In this document: positions 1 through 37,400 of the stretch, in pieces
Layout of the letters: each line of letters begins with the position of its first letter
How positions within the stretch are numbered: position 1 is the stretch's first letter
Assembly: GCA_035235625.1 (NCBI GenBank)
Contig: CP141145.1
Coordinates: 1,798,001 to 1,862,000 of the forward strand
Direction of reading: 5' to 3'
Length of the DNA stretch: 64,000 bases
From: Saururus chinensis
Taxonomy: Eukaryota; Streptophyta; Magnoliopsida; Piperales; Saururaceae
Position numbers and translations under genes: made by a program
Notes under the pieces: model-generated
The model's database searches: none
What the model was told of the DNA's origin: nothing
Seen by the model: only the letters and a program-made list of their open reading frames with translations

Positions 1-3000
1 AGACGTAGTTCTGCTTAGAAACTACTCTATCCTAAGAAGCATAGCATCACACATGCAATGCTTAAGTATTTTCAACCTACATTTTAGTAAGTCCTTTAAT
101 CGTTCCACTTGTTTAATTAACAAGCAACATCAAACATTGTTATTAATTATCTCACATCCTTTGTTTGATAATTAATACCATCAAATCTGTAACTCAGAGA
201 TAACTTGCATCTCGAGAAACCTCCCAAACATGGTACTCCAACTTTGGAGTAGACTACTTAACAGTAGCTTGACCCAAATCCCCAGGGCTCTCAATAGCCT
301 GCCACAAATCTGGGGAAGAAGATCCCAACTGTGCTCATGGACACAGATTGGCAAGAAACACAAGCCTTCCATGATGCTCATGTAACTCCACTTTTCGTAC
401 GTACTAAATAGTCCTGGGAAGACTTGCGGGAGACCAGCGGTAAAGACCCTCTGGTCAATACCCAAACCGCCGTGGCGATGAAGGAGCATGTTACAATCTC
501 CACCTTCCCAACGCTGGGAGAAAATGTCTTATAAGACATTACTAATGTATCAATAGAAGCCTCAGGTCCTTATGACCATTGACTCCCCGAAACATTTGAA
601 ACTTAGGCTAGATTATTTTTATCTAGTCAAGTAACCACTCAACCATGTGAGTCCTCTTCACCTTGTGAATCGGCCCACTAAATAGCTCATCCACTGAGCT
701 AAGACTTAGAGAACATCCCAAAATTACCATCGGTTCATTAACCAAGGTAAGATCTATGTCAGGGCCCCGTTCACTCCATGAACTGGTCCCAACCCTAAAG
801 AGGGTATTTTAGTCATTATCTTTATTAGGTATTCTCCCCTCAAACCAACAACAACCCATGCCTCTTGATTAATCTTCATTAATCTTAAGTTACTGATATA
901 ACTTAAAACATCAATATCAAAAGCATGCATTAACATAATCAACATAAATAACATGCATTCACACCAGTGCGTAAAGAATGAATAAAGGCCCGTTGCACTC
1001 ATTTGCAGGGCTAGGGCTTAGCTAGTTCAACCCTAAGAGTGTAAACAATTCTAATACATCCCGCGAGTTACATATAAAACACTTTAGTCGATCGGTGCAC
1101 TCGGTTGTAGACACATGAAATACGCTGCTTTAAACCTGAGAATTAGGGTTCTACCCCTTATTTTCCATGACACTCTAGCCCGACAAGGTCTTCGTGTCAC
1201 AAACTGGTCATGCTCCTTCCTTTTGAAGTCATGTATAGGGTACTCTACCTCTTAATTCACTAGGTCATCCGTTTCGACAGAAACATATTATATTGCCCCT
1301 AAGGGCATTAGGGTAATTTTACTACCTAGGGTATGATACCCTCCCTTAGGTTATTCTAGTTATTTTACTGCCCCTCTATTGATTTACGTCATTGACCTCT
1401 CACAAGGCTCCACTCTCAGATTGACTCACGCTTCTATTCACACGAATGTGAGCGGGTCCACTCTAAGGGGTATTTCTATCATTTGGTTTAAGGCCTTAAT
1501 GACATCTAATGGGTCCAAAATTTAACTCAAGGGTACTACTAGCCTTCATGGACTCTGTGCAATTTTCCTGACATGTGACGGGGTCGTGAACCCCTTGAAC
1601 CGACTCAGGTGTTGACTAACGGTTTACTATAAACCCTAAGGGCAAAAGGGTTAATTAACCACTCATGGCGATTTTTATTCACTTAGAGATTTGGCCTATA
1701 AATAAGTTACCCATTAAAATATCACTGAGAATTTTCCCAATTTATAGATCAACTCATAGGCCCCTGAACCGAAGCTTCAAACTCGAATAAGTTAATATTA
1801 TACGATAATTAACTCATAGGGGTAAAATGGTTATTTCAAAATCTCTGGGATTTTTCACGAGCTGAAACTCGGTTAGAATAATCCCACACCTCGCCAGGTC
1901 CAAAAGAAATTTTCCCGAATTTCTTTGACACAATTAACCCTCTGAACCGGACCCGATTCACTCTATTCTTTTTTTTAAACTCGGGCCGAACGGGTTGGTT
2001 CACCCAGTCCAGCCCGGCCCGAAACAGAGCCCGACGACCCGCTGGGTTGTCTTCCTCACACCCGGCCAGAGGCCGACTGGCCTCCGCCGACGCCGCCCCA
2101 GGCTGCCGCTCTATGGCGAGGTCTGAGCGGAAATGAATCGCCGCCAGGCGGCGACTCCGACCAACTTAGCCCCGCCACCATCCGGTGGTCGGCTGACACA
2201 AAAATGGGCCTTTCTTCCTTCCTTTTTTTTTAAACGCACTGCTCGCCATGGCGGCTGGTCGCCCCGGCCGGGCAACGTCCTGGAACCAACCGGATCACCG
2301 AGATCCAGCGATTCCGGAGGCCCAGGCTCACTGCCTGTCCCCTGCCGTTTCCGCCCTACCGAGAGTCGGAGTCCTTTTTTTTTTTAAAAAAAAACAACTG
2401 TAACGACCCGGCGACAGCCGATCCGCCGCCGCCAAGGCAACCGGATTTAAGGCTTCCACGGCCAGGGCCAGGGCCGATGAGCCCTTCCTAAGTCTAGCCA
2501 CCAGCCGTCAGCCGATGGCCAGCCGGTGACTGGCCGACGGTCAGAAAATAAGCACAGTACATGAATAGTGATTGCAGAAATCATTATTCATGTTGTCTAC
2601 AAAATAGTTTATATTTTAATAATAAAATATTTCTAATCTCAATTCAAAATTCTACCTTGAACGCTGAGTTGTTGTCGATCCACAGTCGTCAACGCTTTGC
2701 CAGAGTCTCACCGGAAAATTCTCTCCTCTCCTTTCCCGTCCAAAAACTCCCCCTCAAAAAGCCCTAATTAATTCTTTTTATATGCATAGGATTAGGGCTT
2801 CTAATCCCATGAGAAATTAGGCCTCAAAAACCCAATTTAGGAACAGTAAATAATCGGGCCCACAAAACAACTTAAATGGTCCAGTTGCACATTTAAATCA
2901 GGTAAACGGGCCCTATACAACATGTTAAACTTTGAACAGTCATATTTCCCTCATCCGGATTCCGATTCGCACATTCTTAGTGGCGTTTCGAAGCTCTTTC

Positions 3001-3108
3001 TGTTTACTTTTAAGTGATGTTTAAGTTGTTCTCATGAGAGGGTCAAGGGGTTCACCATAATTTCTCGTGGTCAACTTTGGGAATTTAGAAAATTCCCGGA
3101 CGTTACAA
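1..3108 (-). repeat. Long-LTR repeat, family A, minus copy (partial)
   Basis: Read on the minus strand, this stretch begins at 3108 with TGTAACGTCCGGG, the usual start of long plant Ty3/gypsy (Tekay/Del-like) LTRs, and runs off the left edge of the window. Its reverse complement matches the plus-strand repeat at 28630-39538 in the same order: the block at 2740-2830, with a TATA-like ATATAAAA, matches 28640-28700; 1080-1250 matches 35100-35510; and 1-180 matches 38860-39040. Positions 1960-2560 are a GC-rich leader-like section. No coding domain is visible, so the short open frames here are taken as chance. The LTR identity is an inference from the terminus and from the shared order with the second copy. 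Confidence 0.6.
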
Positions 3109-3368
3109 ATATAGTGTTTTTTTTTGTATAACTAATGATCATTGTGATCTTCAAAGCAATGTATTATAACTATAGCATGCAAGCGGGACCCTTGTTCAAT
3201 ATATTTTTTATTTAATTTAATTTATTATATTTAATATGTAATTACACACATAGTACATGTGTATTTTTGCTAGTATATTTAAATTAAATAGAAATTGTGC
3301 AGCCAGGATTTGTGTGACTCACCAAGCTAATGGATATAAGAATAAGAAGGCCAGAATCCAAGAGTGTG

Positions 3369-3376
<8 letters not shown>

Positions 3377-29650: not shown

Positions 29651-29697
29651 GATTAATCCCTGGTCCGAATCAGTTATTATATAAAAACAAAAGAGGG

Positions 29698-30061
29698 TGT
29701 TGTGGACGATTGCCCATAAGCATGGAGCGGCACAGGGAGACCGGGAAAGGGGAGGGTGGATGGCGTGGCCATCAGACATAAAGGGGAGAAGCACAGAAGA
29801 AAGGGAAGGAGATTAGATAATTAATCATTCACTCTTCCACTTAAGGCGTAGCCCTTACATTTAAATAGGCTAACTAATGGGCTCACTAATAAGCACCTAA
29901 GGCCCATTAGCATAATTAAAATAAATAACTAATTACCTAATTAATCAAATTACTTAAATACCTTTATTTCCTAATACTAATTAAAGCACTAATTACCCTA
30001 GCATGTGGCTCCAGTGGTATCCTTAGAACGTGCACAACAGAGCCCTAGAACGTGCACAACA
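29698..30061 (-). repeat. 3' LTR of the gene-capturing element
   Basis: TGTTGTGGACG...CACAACA. Compared with the other LTR it has an extra ~22 bp, a short tandem copy of the CTAGAACGTGCACAACA end. It is the 3' LTR because the element is read on the minus strand. Confidence 0.9.
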
Positions 30062-31268
30062 TTCCACCCTGCTTCCGCATCACCTCGTCCCCGAGGTGAC
30101 CATAAACTCCCACCCATGGGCCCACCACATCTCTGCTTTGAACAGCCAGTCCAGAACAACGAATGCGGCTGAGTCACAAACAAATACTAGAAAAGCACAA
30201 GGCGAGTCCAAACGATGACATGAGTAGCAACTTGATGTGCCTGGGGATGGCACAATAGGTACCTAGGAGATCTACGAAGTGAAAGGGAAGGAAGAAGGGA
30301 GAAAGGGGAGGAAATCTGAGTTCTTTAATTGCATAACCAGCAAAACAAGAGAGGGCCGCCCCATATAGGGGACGACCAATCCCCTAGGGAGTCGCGCCAG
30401 CCCCAAGCCAGGCCGGTCCGATTCCCTAGGTGAACCCGCCAGTTAGTGGACCGGCTAACCCGGGCCACTAACTGAACCAACATCGTTTACAATTAAACCA
30501 AACTAAAGCAAACTAAACTATTACAATAATAAATAGTTTAAGGCAGCATAAATAAAAGAGATAAAATAGAATCGGATCATTGTGGGCTCATCTTGCACAA
30601 CACAACTCCCATTGTGCATGAATCAGCGACATCCTAGGCAGGGCTGAAAGCAATGCGAGTGAAATAAGCAGTCACCAACCCAACAACCCGTCCAGCCCAT
30701 GCAATAGAGAATAATAAGACCCAATTCGCCGCAACTGGCTGCGCACCAAAATGGACGGTTGTGACAAACGATGTAAACCCAAACCAGTGAACTTCCAACG
30801 GTCACCAGTTTACAGATGTTCGCCAATGCCCAGAAGCTAAACCACCAGTGAATGAGTAGAGAAGCCACACAAACACGAGTATTAGGATCAAAATTTCTCC
30901 CATCCTTCAGCCAGTGAATATCAGAAAAATTGACCAATGGCAGCATCGTCAAAATCAGTAGTGGGCAAGGTCGAATGAGGAGGGCAGCTTTCAATTCCGT
31001 AAGATCGCCAATTGAGGAGGCGCTAACGCCACATTTTGGCAAGGACCTCGCAGCCAATGCTTGCTGGGAAAGATTGAGAGCGAAGCCATTAAAAACATCC
31101 TGAATCATTGGCTAGTATGGGCTGCCATCAGCTGCGCAGAAAGTTCCTTCATCACCCTCTGCTTCATGAACGGCCGGGAGACAAGGATTTCCGCCGCTTG
31201 CCCTCAGCATTCCAAACACCATTTTACTCAGGATTGTGATCCCGATCACCTCTAAGTCCATCCCAGCT

Positions 31269-33260
31269 TCATCGCTCCAAGCCGGCCCCCATAATCACCT
31301 CAACAGATGCAAGTAATTTAGTATCAGAAGCCTGCGCCGTCACCATCTTGAAAGTAGCATCACCAGTAACCGCTTCCCATAGTAAGGATCTGCCAGAGCT
31401 CGTAAATCCATCCAATTCTGGTTCTGTAACTTCTAGCTGTCGCCAGGCAAGCGCTGCCATCTCCCACATATTAATCTCAACAAGAACAAGTGGTACTGAT
31501 TTTGCATCATCCCTGCTAATGCCTGGATCAATCTGCCCACCACTAGCCATTCCCAACCGTTCTTGCCCACATTTCTTCCTGGATGTCAGCACATTACAGT
31601 GGAAATGGTAGCACCGATTTCCATTGTTAACAGTCAATGCTGACCCACTAAGAACACTAGGGATGGTGTAATGGTCAGTGCAGATTTTGGCCACCAGGAC
31701 AGTTTCAAAAGTAAAATGCTTATCAGAAATTCTCTCCCAATAGACTTCATTCAATATTGAAGAGGCAGTAGTCCTCAGATGTGATTCTCTAGCATCTGCC
31801 CTGAGGGTCACAGCAAGAAGAGCCGGGACAATTTCTTGGAAGTAAGGAGAAAGGGGAGATGATGAACTCACATCTTCGTAACCTTGAACAAGGAAGTAAA
31901 GGGCTCCACAAGCCATTTCAGCAGCATTTGGAACGTCTTGCAGGCGTTGCAACAAAACTGTATGAATCTGTGGATAATTGGCCTGGATGATAATTGAAGT
32001 CGCCACAGTGGACCCATGAAGAAAATCAAACCCACCCTCTGCTCCATTAGCTGGGTGAAAAAAACCAATGAAGGATTTGTGCGGAACCACTGACAGGGGA
32101 CAATTTTTGGCCTGTGAGCAACCTGCAGTTTTCTCTGCGGAAGTGATCAAAACCGCCTGATGTTTCTGCCAGTCGGCCGCACCAAAGTACGCCGACAGCA
32201 ACTCGGAGACAACTGGAACAATGGTATTCCCACCAAGAGAGATAGCTAACCAGACCAGGCAGTCTTGAGCCACGCTATACCAGCTCGTCTTCCCCGCATC
32301 CTCGTCTTTGCTCTTGGAAACGTGCCACGCAGGGTCGTCCGCAATATCCAGCAACATTGGCACCAATGTGGAAAACAACCTTCCAGGGAACTGAGGCAGC
32401 TTCTTCATCATCCCACAAGGCGTCTGCTCTCTCATTCTGAAGATGCCCATGGCCTCTGCAAACTTCCTCTGCTTGAGCAGAACCCCCAAGAGAGCATTGT
32501 AGGGGACGACGATCCTCTGGGAATGCCAGTACATCAGCTGCTGGCAGGGAACCGTGGCCTCCCTTTCCCTACCCTTCTGGAAGAAAGCCTCCATCATAGT
32601 AGCATGAGCCACTCCATCGTTCACTAAGCACTTGTGGTGCCATTCATCAAACAGTTTGAGGGCCTCCAGCATGTCTTCCAGTTTGCTATGACCACCCGAC
32701 ACACTATTATAGACCAATGAATCAGCTCCGTGGCCCTTGGTGAACATCTTCTGCAGCAGAACCAGTGCCTCCGTAATGAGGCCGGCATCCCCAAAGTCTG
32801 GTGGATAACTCAAAGCAATCTGTGTGAGTTGTTGCATGCCGTAGAGTTGGAAGCTCACCGCCCGTGCAAACCAGATTTTTGCAGATTCAATAATCGTCGC
32901 CTGTAGCAGAGCATCCGTGGGAAGGTCAAGATGACATGGGACAGAGGAAATTCCGGAGTGGGCGAGCTGCACTACGACAGGGGAATATCGCAACGAACTT
33001 GGGACCACCGAACCAATAGCCAGAGCCGCAAAACCATCACAACCGAGATTTTCTGTTCCAAAACTCACCTCCCATAACGCAAGCCAAATTTCCCGAATGA
33101 TCCGGTGCAATTCTTTGTAAACAAGCCGTGGCAGTGACAACAATTTCCTCACAAATTCCCGATTCAACATTTGAGCGGCATCTCCAAACCGGGAACACCA
33201 ATCCAGAAAATCCCGTGTGAGGAGCTTCATCTCCAGCTTGGCCGAAAATCTCTCAATCAA
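31269..33260 (-). CDS. Chimeric ORF of captured host pieces: PPR-like, importin-5-like, importin beta-1-like
   Basis: 663 codons on the minus strand inside the LTR element. Residues 1-110 are unrecognised. Residues ~160-278 look like PPR repeats (LVYNSVSGGHSK, NDGVAHATMMEAFFQKG, VPYNALLGVLLKQRKFAEA), in the style of plant mitochondrial PPR proteins such as Arabidopsis At3g49240. Residues ~283-383 resemble plant importin-5 (MMKKLPQFPGRLF, LLDIADDPAWH, LAISLGGNTIVPV). Residues ~398-507 resemble importin beta-1 (FDFLHGSTVAT, DVPNAAEMACGALYFLVQGY). Residues 508-663 are unrecognised. Importins are HEAT-repeat nuclear import receptors; only ~100-residue slices are present, so transport activity is not expected. 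Family matches are from memory. The pieces follow one another without introns, as expected of RNA-based capture. Whether it is translated is unknown. Confidence 0.75.
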   Translation of the reverse strand: MIERFSAKLEMKLLTRDFLDWCSRFGDAAQMLNREFVRKLLSLPRLVYKELHRIIREIWLALWEVSFGTENLGCDGFAALAIGSVVPSSLRYSPVVVQLAHSGISSVPCHLDLPTDALLQATIIESAKIWFARAVSFQLYGMQQLTQIALSYPPDFGDAGLITEALVLLQKMFTKGHGADSLVYNSVSGGHSKLEDMLEALKLFDEWHHKCLVNDGVAHATMMEAFFQKGREREATVPCQQLMYWHSQRIVVPYNALLGVLLKQRKFAEAMGIFRMREQTPCGMMKKLPQFPGRLFSTLVPMLLDIADDPAWHVSKSKDEDAGKTSWYSVAQDCLVWLAISLGGNTIVPVVSELLSAYFGAADWQKHQAVLITSAEKTAGCSQAKNCPLSVVPHKSFIGFFHPANGAEGGFDFLHGSTVATSIIIQANYPQIHTVLLQRLQDVPNAAEMACGALYFLVQGYEDVSSSSPLSPYFQEIVPALLAVTLRADARESHLRTTASSILNEVYWERISDKHFTFETVLVAKICTDHYTIPSVLSGSALTVNNGNRCYHFHCNVLTSRKKCGQERLGMASGGQIDPGISRDDAKSVPLVLVEINMWEMAALAWRQLEVTEPELDGFTSSGRSLLWEAVTGDATFKMVTAQASDTKLLASVEVIMGAGLER

Positions 33261-33275
33261 AATCTTTTCCGCCAG

Positions 33276-33845
33276 CTAGTGAAGGAAAAGATTCTCCATA
33301 GCCGAAGATCGCGGCTGTTTTGTGGGAGGAGATGCCAACGGAACAACTCGAGGCAGAGCACAGTGGAAGGCTGACAAGACGGCGGAATCGAACGGCGGAG
33401 AGGATGGAGACGACGATGGCGGAGGATGGTGGCGGAGGCTGGAGGTCAGTCGAGGGAGCGACTGTTGGAAAAACCTAGACTTTGGGTGTTTGGCCGCTGG
33501 TCCCTTGTTTCGACAGAGAAACAGGGTGCCGATCGGGTGACGGAGAAGAAGGCGACCGGGTTGCCGATGGCAGGGGCTCTGGCGGAAGGCGGATCCAGGG
33601 AAGTCGATAAGGCGGGAAACGGCGCCGGCGGCAAGATTGCCTCCCCTGTTTTCGACTGTGAAACAGGGAGTGGATTCAGCACTGAAGGAGACAAACTGAT
33701 CTGAGAAGCCATGGGACTGCTCGGCAGGGCGCTTGTGCTGTTTGTGGGATGTGGTTGCAGCAGAGTTGATTTTGTTGGGCTCCTCAAACAGCAGATGCAT
33801 TGTTCGGGAGGCCATCCTGTTCCTTGGGCAGCGGCATGTTGTCAA
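33276..33845 (-). CDS. Leader ORF 2 of the gene-capturing element
   Basis: 189 codons between the first leader frame and the mosaic frame. It is rich in serine, proline and arginine, with a segment (SLPRLTSSLRHHPPPSSSPS) that looks like an organellar transit peptide or a low-complexity linker. No domain recognised. Overlapping plus-strand frames exist here and are considered shadows. It might be part of the captured PPR gene's 5' end; this is a guess. Confidence 0.35.
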   Translation of the reverse strand: MTTCRCPRNRMASRTMHLLFEEPNKINSAATTSHKQHKRPAEQSHGFSDQFVSFSAESTPCFTVENRGGNLAAGAVSRLIDFPGSAFRQSPCHRQPGRLLLRHPIGTLFLCRNKGPAAKHPKSRFFQQSLPRLTSSLRHHPPPSSSPSSPPFDSAVLSAFHCALPRVVPLASPPTKQPRSSAMENLFLH

Positions 33846-34062
33846 TGACGGAGGGAGGTGGTGCCATCCGGGAAGGCTGTGACAGTCCGCCCGGTACAGA
33901 AGGGGACGGCCCAGGTAGAAGAGGCGGCCCTAGTAGATTGGCCCTTGTGTGTGCCGTCGTCGTGCCGTTTGCTGCGCTCACCATTTTTGTTAGGACTTCC
34001 AATGTAGCTAGGATTTTGTTGAGCTTGAGTTCGTAGGCTATCGCAGGATCACCTTGAGCCAT
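33784..34062 (-). CDS. Leader ORF 1, possibly gag-derived
   Basis: Starting at the ATG at 34062 (MAQGDPAIAYELKLNKILATL), about 20 nt past the primer-binding site, this frame encodes ~93 residues: a short helical segment (LKLNKILATLEVLTKM) and then a proline/glycine-rich tail. The open frame extends upstream into the LTR, but the first ATG after the primer site is the more sensible start. Its position matches that of a gag start in LTR elements; no nucleocapsid zinc knuckle is present. Confidence 0.4.
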   Translation of the reverse strand: MAQGDPAIAYELKLNKILATLEVLTKMVSAANGTTTAHTRANLLGPPLLPGPSPSVPGGLSQPSRMAPPPSVIDNMPLPKEQDGLPNNASAV

Positions 34063-34079
34063 AGCCGGGGATTGTAAAT

Positions 34080-34092
34080 ACTTCGATACCAA
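34080..34092 (-). other. Primer-binding site (tRNA-Met-like)
   Basis: Minus-strand TTGGTATCGAAGT directly inside the 5' LTR. The plant tRNA-iMet type site is TGGTATCAGAGC, so the match is partial. Confidence 0.65.
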
Positions 34093-34434
34093 TGTTATAG
34101 ACGATTGTCCATAAGTATGGAGCGGCACAGGGAGACCGGGAAAGGGGAGGGTGGATGGCGTGGCCATCAGACAGAAAGGGGAAAAGCACAGAAGAAAGGG
34201 AAGGAGATTAGACAATTAATCATTCACTCCTCCACTTAGGGCGTAGCCCTTACATTTAAATAGGCTAACTAATGGGCTCACTAACAAGCACCTAAGGCCC
34301 ATTAGCATAATTAAAATAAATAACTAATTACCTAATTAATCAAATTACTTAAATACCCTTATTTCCTAATACTAATTAAAACACTAATTACCCTAGCATG
34401 TAGCTCCAGTGGCATCCTTATAACGTGCACAACA
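34093..34434 (-). repeat. 5' LTR of the gene-capturing element
   Basis: TGTTATAGACG...CACAACA, about 95.6% identical by hand count to the copy at 29698-30039. It would contain the promoter for the minus-strand transcript. Confidence 0.9.
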
Positions 34435-37400
34435 GAGGGCACTGAACCAAGTCATATTCAAGAGGCTATAATTATTTAAATTTTTTAGAAAAATTACCAG
34501 TGAACATTGAGAGTGGGACGAGTGTCTTGATGGAGTTTTAGATTGAGGAAAAATGCCAGTATGTAAAAAGACTATTTTATCGTTATAAGTAACTATTATT
34601 CAATTACTCTAATTAGGGGCTCTAGTTAAGTGGCCTATGAGTGGATTTAAAAATTGAGAAAAATCTCAATGAGAGGTAAGGGTGTACTCTAATACAGAAC
34701 AATTCATATGGTCGGGGAAAATTCTCAATAAATGGGTAACTAACTACTTTACCCTTAGGGTCAAGGGTAAACAATTAAGCAAACCAGGTTCGGCTCAAGG
34801 GGTTCACGGCCTCATTAAATGCCAGGAAAATTACCTTAGGTCCATGACATCAAGGAGTACCCTTGGGCTTAGTTACATACAAATTAGAGTGCAGGAAAGT
34901 CTGAAAGAAATGATAAAAATACCCCTATGAGCGAACCACCGCATTTGTGTAAATAGAAGCGCAAGTCCATTTGAGAGTACAACCTCTAGAGAGGTGAATG
35001 ACTTGAAATTAATTGAAGGATAGTGAGATGAGCAAAATGACATAAGGGAGAGTACCATACCCCAAGTGGGAGAATTACCTCATTGTCCATTGGGGCAGTC
35101 TACCCCATTTTTTCTAAAATAGATACCCTAGCGAAAGGTGAGTTAGGGCACCCTATATTAATAATCGTAAAGATCTTCAATTGGAAGGGGTGTGACCAAC
35201 CGGTGATAGAAGACCTTTACAGGTCACACTATCATGGTAAATAGGGAGAAGAACCCTCATTCTAAGGGTTTAAGGCAACATATTATATATGTCTACAACA
35301 CCTTATATCAAACGGCTAGGGTAATATGTACGTATCTCAGATAACACGTAAAAGTTATTTACATTCATGAACATGAATTTCTATAGCCCTAGCCCTGCAA
35401 ATGAGTCAATGAGCCTTCGTTTATTACTAATGGGCTTGAGTCTTGTTGGTGTTGTTTGTTAAGATTTATGTAAACCATGATATTTATCTTTGATGCATGC
35501 TTTTGACATTGACCTCCAGTGCGCTATCATGGAGTGAGAGGCCAACATGGCTTTGTCATAGGTAGAGCCTTCGCCATGGCTAGGTGGCATCTCTATGAAA
35601 GAGACAACCTCTAGATAGGGGGATTAATCCCTGGTCCGATTTAGTTATTATTTAAAAACAAAAGAGGGCACTGAACTAGGTCATGTTCAAGAGGTTATAA
35701 TTGTTTAATAGGTTTAGAAACATTACGAGTGAACATTGAAAGTGGAACCAGTGTCTTGATGGAGTTTTAGAATGAGGAAAAATAGCAGTCTATAAAAAGA
35801 CTATTTTACCCTTATAGGTAACTGTTATTCAATTACTCTATTTAAGAGCTCCAGTTAAGTGGCTTATGAGTGGATTTAAAAATTGAGAAAAATTTCAATA
35901 AGAGGTAAAAGTGTACTCTAAGTATAGAACAATTCACATGGTGGGGAAAATTCTCAGTAAATGGGTAACTAACTACTTTATCCTTAGGGTTGAAGGGTGA
36001 ACTATTAAGAGAACCAGGTTCAGTTCAAGGGGTTCATGACCTTATTAAATGCCAGGAAAATTACCTTAGGGCCATGACATCAAGGAGTACCTTTGGGCTT
36101 AGTTATATACTAATTAGAGTTCAGAAAAGCCTGAAAGAAATGATAAAAATACCCCTATGAGCGAACCACCACATTTGTGTAAATAGAAGCGCAAGTCCAT
36201 TTGAGAGTCAAGCCTCTAGAGAGGTGAATGACCATACCCCAAGTGGTAGAATTACCACATTGTCCATTGGGGCAGTCTACCCCAATTTTTATAAAATAGA
36301 TACCCTAGCCAAAGGTGAGTTAGGGCACCCTATATTAATAATCGTAAAGGTCTTCAATTGGAAGGGGTGTGACCAGCTAGTGACAGAAGACCTTTACAGG
36401 TCACACTATCATGGGAAACAGGGGGGAGAAACCTTATTCTAAGGGTTTAAGGAAGCATATTATATATGTCTACAACACCTTATTTCAAATAGCTAGGGTA
36501 ATATGTACGTATCTCAGATAACACGTAAAAGTTATTTACAATCATGAACTTGAATTTGTCTAGCCCTAGTCCTGCAAATGTGTCAATGAGCCTTCATTTA
36601 TTACTAATAGGCTTGAGTCTTGTTAGTGTTGTTTGTTAAGACTTATGTAAACCGTAATATTTATCTTTGATGCATGCTTTTGACATTGACCTCCAGCGAG
36701 CTATCATGGAGTGAGAGGCTAGGCCGGGCTTTGCCATAGGTAGTGCCTCCGCCATGGCTAAGTGGCATCTTTGTGAAAGAGACGATCTCTAGACAGGGGG
36801 ATTAATCCCTAGTCCGATTTAGTTATTATTTAAAAACAAAAGAGGGTGTTGAACCGGGTCATGTTCAAGAGGCTATAATTGTTTAAAATTTTTAGAAAAA
36901 TAACCAATGAACATTGAGAGTGGGATGCGTGTCTTGATGGAGTTTTAGATTGAGGAAAAATACTTCTCTATAAAAAAACTATTTTACCCTTATAGGTAAC
37001 TATTATTCAATTACTCTATTTAGGGGCTCCAATTTAGTGGCCTATGAGTGTATTTAAAAATTGAGAAAAATCTCAATGAGAGGTAAGGTGTACTCTAAGT
37101 ATAGTACAATTCACATGGTTGAGAAAATTCTTAGTAAATGGGTAACTAACTACTTTACCCTTAGGGTTAATGGTGAACTATTAAATGAACCAGGTTCAGT
37201 TTAAGGGCTCACGACCTCATTAAATGCTAGGAAAATTACCCCAAGTCCATGACATCAAGGAGTAACCTTGGGCTTAGTTACATACCCATTAGAGTGTAGG
37301 AAAACTTGAAAGAAATGATAAAAATACCCCAATGAGCGAACCACCACATTTGTGTACATAGAAGCGCAAGTCCATTTGAGAGTAGAGCCTCTAGAGAGGT

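Follow-up and report, generated by a model that had tools for sequence, protein, structure and literature searches.

Plant genes reach transposable elements by several routes. Pack-MULEs and Helitrons are DNA transposons that carry genomic DNA with its introns, and in retroviral transduction template switching joins a spliced sense host mRNA to an infectious retrovirus, and recombination at homologous stretches follows. Gene capture by long terminal repeat (LTR) retroelements has, to our knowledge, usually been argued from single end products. Such capture is already known, and the multi-gene case found described is Bs1 of maize, an LTR element with fused fragments of three host genes; the same source notes that Pack-MULEs and Helitrons carry fragments of several plant genes (PMC13317346). 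LTR elements with gene fragments have been reported from maize, rice, sorghum and pepper, and in pepper many of them lack gag or pol (PMC2774510, PMC3726574, PMC5664825). In the maize survey, 425 elements arose from at least 189 captures, and under the survey's conditions no LTR element held fragments of more than one standard nuclear gene (PMC2774510); another report mentions two or three genes within single LTR elements, one of them selected as a retrogene (PMC5664825).

Here we describe an LTR retroelement on the minus strand at positions 29698-34434 of a 64,000-nucleotide stretch of the Saururus chinensis genome (the window; contig CP141145.1, positions 1,798,001 to 1,862,000, assembly GCA_035235625.1), together with its relatives in the same genome (516 Mb in 11 contigs; C-numbers denote contigs and L-numbers retrieved loci). 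The window element was confirmed as a non-autonomous LTR retroelement and, read 5' to 3', consists of an LTR, a leader, a segment termed segU, a PPR-gene piece, an importin-5 piece, a linker, an importin beta-1 piece, backbone, a polypurine tract (PPT) region and an LTR. From the sequences compared, we consider it very probable that this element belongs to a non-autonomous family whose mosaics were built by template switching among spliced host mRNAs and element RNAs, with a chromovirus-like family as the probable helper.

The original prediction placed in this element a frame of 663 codons with PPR-like, importin-5-like and importin beta-1-like segments. Measured stop to stop, the frame has 668 codons (31269-33275, minus strand, as are all parts of the element) and contains part of segU, the PPR piece (32414-32798, with an internal deletion judged by eye), the importin-5 piece (32115-32413), a linker (32031-32114) that several family members have in front of importin beta-1, the importin beta-1 piece (31744-32030) and part of the backbone. 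All three predicted segments were recovered over the Pfam cut-off, as PPR (2.8e-9), Importin_rep_4 (residues 283-354; 7.1e-8) and TPR_IMB1 (residues 439-511; 6.7e-8), and candidate donor loci were found for them. At the DNA level, the PPR piece was 79% identical over 318 nucleotides (nt) to a host gene at C5:19890490, a relative of which lies on C6; the importin-5 piece was 85% identical over 323 nt to C4:17853649, which has a paralog at C10:20859569; and the importin beta-1 piece was 85% identical over 287 nt to C6:23767321, which has a paralog at C3:30500967. The C4 and C6 host genes were named Importin-5 and importin beta-1 by PDB matches (E values of 2e-54 and 3e-181). A weak continuous importin-5 match over residues 277-489 suggested a single importin gene as the source of both pieces; this was rejected because the DNA matches separate two donors, so that two different import receptors are present, as had been proposed.

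A genome-wide search with the LTRs returned at least 42 matches, several of which, the window pair included, lie 2.7-4.4 kb apart; since only 40 of 1356 LTR candidates were scored, the copy number of the family is a lower bound. Many relatives were also mosaics, with other gene sets. Pfam was run on chosen frames of the relatives (173 frames kept and 130 sequences scanned, window included) after frames of duplicate loci and some antisense frames had been dropped, and the matches listed cover 25 of 65 families. Among the matches listed, those over cut-off were TIP49 (L019, L023, L037), NAD_binding_2 or _11 (L011, L019, L020, L034, L073), a mitochondrial carrier domain (L020, L035, L083), TPR (L035, L083), Ldh_1 (L017, L033), UBA (L028, L076) and AAA_2 (L026; below cut-off in L024). 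PDB matches identified a RuvB-like protein in L019 (E, 2e-31), an ADP/ATP carrier and an O-GlcNAc transferase in L035 (2e-32 and 3e-58), and a 6-phosphogluconate/3-hydroxyisobutyrate dehydrogenase-like protein in L020 (3e-15). With the PPR gene and the two importins included, about ten kinds of gene have served the family, or twelve donors if importin paralogs are counted; the second importin beta-1 paralog, on C3, was captured separately, L006 and L084 matching it at 92-98%. Host loci of the PPR, importin and dehydrogenase genes were found, and possible RuvB-like host exons lie at C3:6183991 and C11:32593494. Pyruvate kinase in L033 (E, 0.003), SufE in L034 (below cut-off) and FKBP in L035 (E, 1.4e-5) were excluded from the count. 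One copy, L019 (C4:42721297-42724677), is a complete 2.9-kb element with both LTRs (456-3371 of the locus) and pieces of five genes, namely RuvB-like, PPR (short; 34 residues, E of 4e-7), importin-5, importin beta-1 and dehydrogenase. The 5-mers on its two sides, TAATT and TGATT, are identical at 4 of 5 positions. L083 (C1:43891300-43894600) has frames of 670 and 160 codons, which hold TPR and importin beta-1 pieces as well as part of a mitochondrial carrier; an 832-codon frame indicated at C1:43892022 by the genome search was not borne out by the L083 sequence.

The joins between pieces recurred among these copies. The PPR-importin-5 join was the same or nearly so in six elements (L010, L011, L012, L017, L019 and the window) and the importin-5-linker join was present in four (L011, L012, L019 and the window); the join of importin beta-1 to the 3' backbone (BB3) in the window was found in no other retrieved locus. 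Starting points recurred as well: importin beta-1 matches began at position 1321 or 1322 in 13 of 52 cases, and importin-5 matches began at position 926 in 8 of 32 and at position 596 in 6 of 32. A short importin beta-1 piece (positions 1009-1152), ending at 1152 in ten places, forms a separate group. The three joins of the window element have 1, 7 and 9 nt of microhomology. At the second, CAGGCCA is common to L017, where importin-5 exon 1 runs on into exon 2, and to L022, where backbone runs into the linker and then importin beta-1, and the window crosses over there from importin-5 to the linker. At the third, GAATGAAGT (31744-31752) is common to the host importin beta-1 gene and to the backbone of L014, and again the window crosses over there. 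Un-joined arrangements were present in L017 and L010 (importin-5 exons 1-2), in L022, L020 and L035 (linker-importin beta-1) and in L014 (backbone). Therefore, the window copy was assembled by recombination among elements that already carried captures. L006 and L084 have the same internal importin beta-1 deletion with 8 common nt, TGGGCCTT. Splicing was considered as the origin of internal deletions and rejected, the listed importin-5 and importin beta-1 breakpoints not lying consistently at AG or GT.

The pieces had been predicted to be joined without introns, and the host exon structure was compared accordingly. The host importin-5 intron measures 376 bp in the C4 gene and 805 bp in the C10 gene, and it is gone in all nine loci that have both exons 1 and 2 (L010, L017, L028, L031, L033, L034, L073, L076 and L078), where the exons are contiguous; a gap-free exon join pattern with at most 5 substitutions was matched in 7 of those 9. 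The dehydrogenase-like host locus (C1:10116498-10118372) gave four separate exon matches, and residues 5-129 of the dehydrogenase were found in one piece at four other places (query included), three of them in L011, L020 and L073. In the host, the PPR gene is an open frame, as is the captured part of importin beta-1, so neither discriminates between RNA- and DNA-level capture.

Moreover, the importin-5 cargo of several relatives had changed parentage within the captured piece. Informative sites were classed as C10-like or C4-like at positions 596-679 and beyond, and the two parts were compared by the Fisher test. L073 was C10-like at 13 of 14 sites in the first part and then C4-like at 137 of 148 (P = 4e-14), L076 at 11 of 13 and then 141 of 164 (P = 6e-10), and L028 at 9 of 14 and then 142 of 161 (P = 3e-8), all three switching at about the same point, ~80 nt in. 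L078 was C10-like in both parts (12 of 14 and 138 of 159; P = 0.25), with 90.7% identity to C10. The 5' join is identical in L073, L076 and L078; the blastn match of L028 starts 24 nt further in and is preceded by different sequence. The simplest history would begin with capture of a C10 mRNA, part of which was afterwards exchanged for C4 sequence. In L073, L076 and L028 the C4 tract crosses the joined exons, so the C4 source was spliced, and this tract would be the strongest sign of recombination through RNA or cDNA.

The strand of the captured pieces was that of the element in 26 of 26 loci with both element and PPR or importin parts, after matches below 40% identity had been dropped; these are 25 elements, because L012 and L023 overlap, and fewer than 25 independent captures, since most of the loci were chosen for their resemblance to the window frame or DNA and they have common ancestry. 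At the same filter, L025 had donor parts and no element part, and L002, L003, L004, L008, L014, L024, L026 and L060 had element parts and no PPR or importin match. These results bear on the alternative in which capture and shuffling took place at the DNA level, by Helitron- or Pack-MULE-like gap repair or by ectopic gene conversion among copies and host genes, which we regard as improbable. Exchange between dispersed DNA copies is possible, microhomology joins arise in DNA repair too, and two of the three donors of the window pieces are the open frames just mentioned. However, importin-5 exons were joined in every locus that has both, the introns of the dehydrogenase donor are not in the elements, the C4 tract that replaced C10 sequence was already spliced, and the sense strand was used in all 26 loci; LTRs, a target site duplication (TSD) and PPT likeness also speak against it, no search having been made for Helitron or MULE ends.

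In a second alternative, selection would maintain a chimeric protein encoded by the 668-codon frame, as has been suggested for Bs1. The frame is indeed open over its full length, and frames of relatives are long too (615 codons in L035, 670 in L083). The dN/dS figures, which are without confidence intervals, were 1.48 between the window and L011 and 0.85 between L035 and L083, with 0.05 between the host importin-5 genes for comparison. Against their donors, the window pieces gave 1.14 (importin-5), 0.69 (importin beta-1) and 0.47 (PPR), the last of which would favor selection. The between-copy values do not support selection on the window frame, and stops were present in many related places. 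We therefore find a selected protein very unlikely; the cargo appears to evolve mostly about neutrally between copies, and it is probably passive, apparently without a function of its own.

Less likely again is that a single element captured the three genes by itself, as the original prediction may be read. The window copy does have pieces of three genes between LTRs and a TSD, and that part of the prediction stood; the capture was neither a one-off nor the work of this copy, because five other elements have the PPR-importin-5 join and three others have the importin-5-linker join, and the un-joined arrangements in six loci contradict it as a full account. An assembly chimera or chance similarity, for which no support was found, can hardly be credited at all, given that the same joins recur on C4, C5, C6, C8 and C9, with the PPR-importin-5 join in six elements, that Pfam E values were at most 1e-7 for all three donor types and that DNA identity to host genes was 79-85%.

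Pfam scans of four frames found no pol in the window element, as predicted, and a pol-bearing, chromovirus-like Ty3-type family was considered as the candidate helper. This family, to which a solo LTR nested in the window element also belongs, is young (K2P [Kimura two-parameter distance] of 0.005-0.031 for 7 LTR pairs); its members include L085, with RNase H and integrase, and L051, with a Tf2-1-like SH3 domain over the Pfam cut-off. Likeness was scored by local alignment against the maximum of shuffles (200 for the PPT side). The leaders of L037 and L019 scored 105 and 46 (shuffle maxima, 26 and 27), and the PPT side of the window element scored 54 (maximum, 27). The mosaic elements are probably satellites of this family. 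No pol-bearing partner with the same LTRs was found: the 6.9 kb upstream of L003 (L081) matched neither the window element nor the PPR and importin host genes, its frames not having been scanned with Pfam. RNase H and integrase occur within a 9.1-kb LTR pair at C9:17771114-17780225 (L085), close to a stretch 73% identical to the family of the nested solo LTR; this pol was considered as the mosaic element's own and, from the 4 kb of L085 together with L002 at that locus, is provisionally read instead as part of a nested chromovirus-like element. Pol-bearing members also appear to lie inside other mosaic elements, in L085 at the C9 pair and in L064 and L051 at C1:68318048-68323500, where carrier-like sequence stands on both sides of the LTR pair.

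Several observations weigh against template switching among spliced mRNAs with a chromovirus-like helper. The importin-5 piece of the window lies within one host exon, so the predicted absence of introns holds through exon joins in relatives and not through the window copy. The PPR-importin-5 join has only about 1 common nt, and DNA-level recombination between copies is possible for the element-element joins. No donor was found for segU by Pfam or host-gene match, and the PPR piece has a dN/dS of 0.47 against its donor, a value that might stem from constraint on the donor or from the true donor being another gene. Two loci retrieved through the LTR only, L002 and L004, showed no PPR or importin part, and most retrieved loci are 3-4 kb long and, therefore, many elements were seen in part. 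One backbone piece is reversed in an otherwise sense element (L031:2483-2586). On the helper side, the chromodomain match of L051 is below cut-off (22 versus 25.1 bits), the window's own leader scored 35 (shuffle maximum, 29), a weaker likeness, and the LTRs of the two families agree in their first 11 nt, TGTTGTGCACG, and do not align in their bodies (29 versus a shuffle maximum of 30), so that shared ancestry cannot be claimed for the whole element.

With these points in mind, copying of the mosaics through RNA would proceed as follows. Packaging and copying in trans would act on element RNAs along with occasional spliced host mRNAs and the RNAs of other copies. Reverse transcriptase would switch template at short matches, stitching sense mRNA pieces into the element, and a switch at longer homology would exchange one captured paralog for another; the new mosaics would then integrate and multiply. 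For the window copy, a PPR piece would have been united with importin-5, then with a linker-importin beta-1 module and then with a separate backbone before integration. We infer the packaging, the reverse transcription step and mobilization in trans from these patterns. The further proposal, that the family is a continuing RNA-level exon shuffler whose satellites take in spliced mRNAs, join them at microhomologies and re-edit them by exchange with paralog mRNAs, seems to us somewhat better than an even bet.

The remaining anatomy of the window element was largely as predicted. Its LTRs are direct repeats that start with TG and end with CA: a 5' LTR of 342 nt (34093-34434) and a 3' LTR of 364 nt (29698-30061; TGTTGTG...CACAACA) with 22 terminal nt not in the 5' LTR. 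Their alignment shows 15 differences over 342 sites (K2P, 0.0457), in keeping with the ~4% divergence proposed, which would date the insertion to about 1.8 million years ago at an assumed rate of 1.3e-8 per site per year, a rate that appears in the methods of PMC5664825. The predicted TSD GAGGG was read directly on both sides (29693-29697 and 34435-34439), as was the paralogous empty site (GAGGG, 35664-35668), within a duplicated flank ~90% alike; the source of that site is a tandem duplication of the flank 34429-36500, with a spacing of ~1.2 kb and pieces 86-96% alike. The leader (33775-34092) has a short frame and, at 34081-34092, directly adjoining the 5' LTR, the primer-site-like TTGGTATCGAAG, similar words of which are found in relatives and which may be a Met-type tRNA primer site. 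segU (32799-33592) is common to many family members and without a Pfam match; two 32-nt direct repeats, 78% alike, lie inside it (33502-33533) and just upstream of it (33644-33675). BB3 (30603-31752) is 94% identical to L014 and present in other family members, and the backbone end with the PPT region (30062-30232) adjoins the 3' LTR and resembles the 3' end of the chromovirus-like family. Between them lies what the prediction had not mapped, the nested solo LTR (30233-30602; TSD, AGTTG), which is not original to the element: its site is empty in L003, and it is 92-95% identical to scored copies elsewhere. TRIM elements have very short LTRs and internal regions, and classification as a TRIM was rejected, with LTRs of 342-364 bp and an internal region of ~4 kb.

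Because a single genome holds intermediates, parental arrangements, common joins and a paralog crossover side by side, it directly records the template-switch joins and the order in which pieces were captured. Packaging of mRNA and copy-choice recombination thereby become open to test in plant retroelements. If the family is indeed a continuing RNA-level exon shuffler, it would represent, at the scale of a family, the plant equivalent of gene transduction by retroviruses, with ever new multi-gene fusions arising across one genome. Annotators should bear in mind that a long chimeric frame containing PPR or importin domains may be the cargo of an element. No report of family-scale multi-gene LTR mosaicism was found in the openly searchable literature, subscription papers and preprints lying outside it.

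The comparison with described systems is as follows. Retroviral transduction would offer a likeness of process, and the present case differs in being a plant LTR family with fragmentary and apparently neutral cargo. Unlike Pack-MULEs and Helitrons, the elements have LTRs, a PPT and intron-free pieces, the introns being gone in relatives. Compared with the gene-fragment LTR elements of maize, rice, sorghum and pepper, several elements here have fused pieces of at least three genes, and a single element of this LTR family can unite pieces of five host genes; the maize survey, under its conditions, had none with more than one (PMC2774510). The cargo of Bs1 (ATPase, glucanase and xylan endohydrolase pieces) was absent from the Pfam matches of the four window frames, and its intron-free host pieces have their equivalent in the relatives, the window importin-5 piece lying within one exon. 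Bs1 has been described with one gene set; the Saururus family has overlapping sets drawn from about ten kinds of gene, with traceable joins and a paralog swap.

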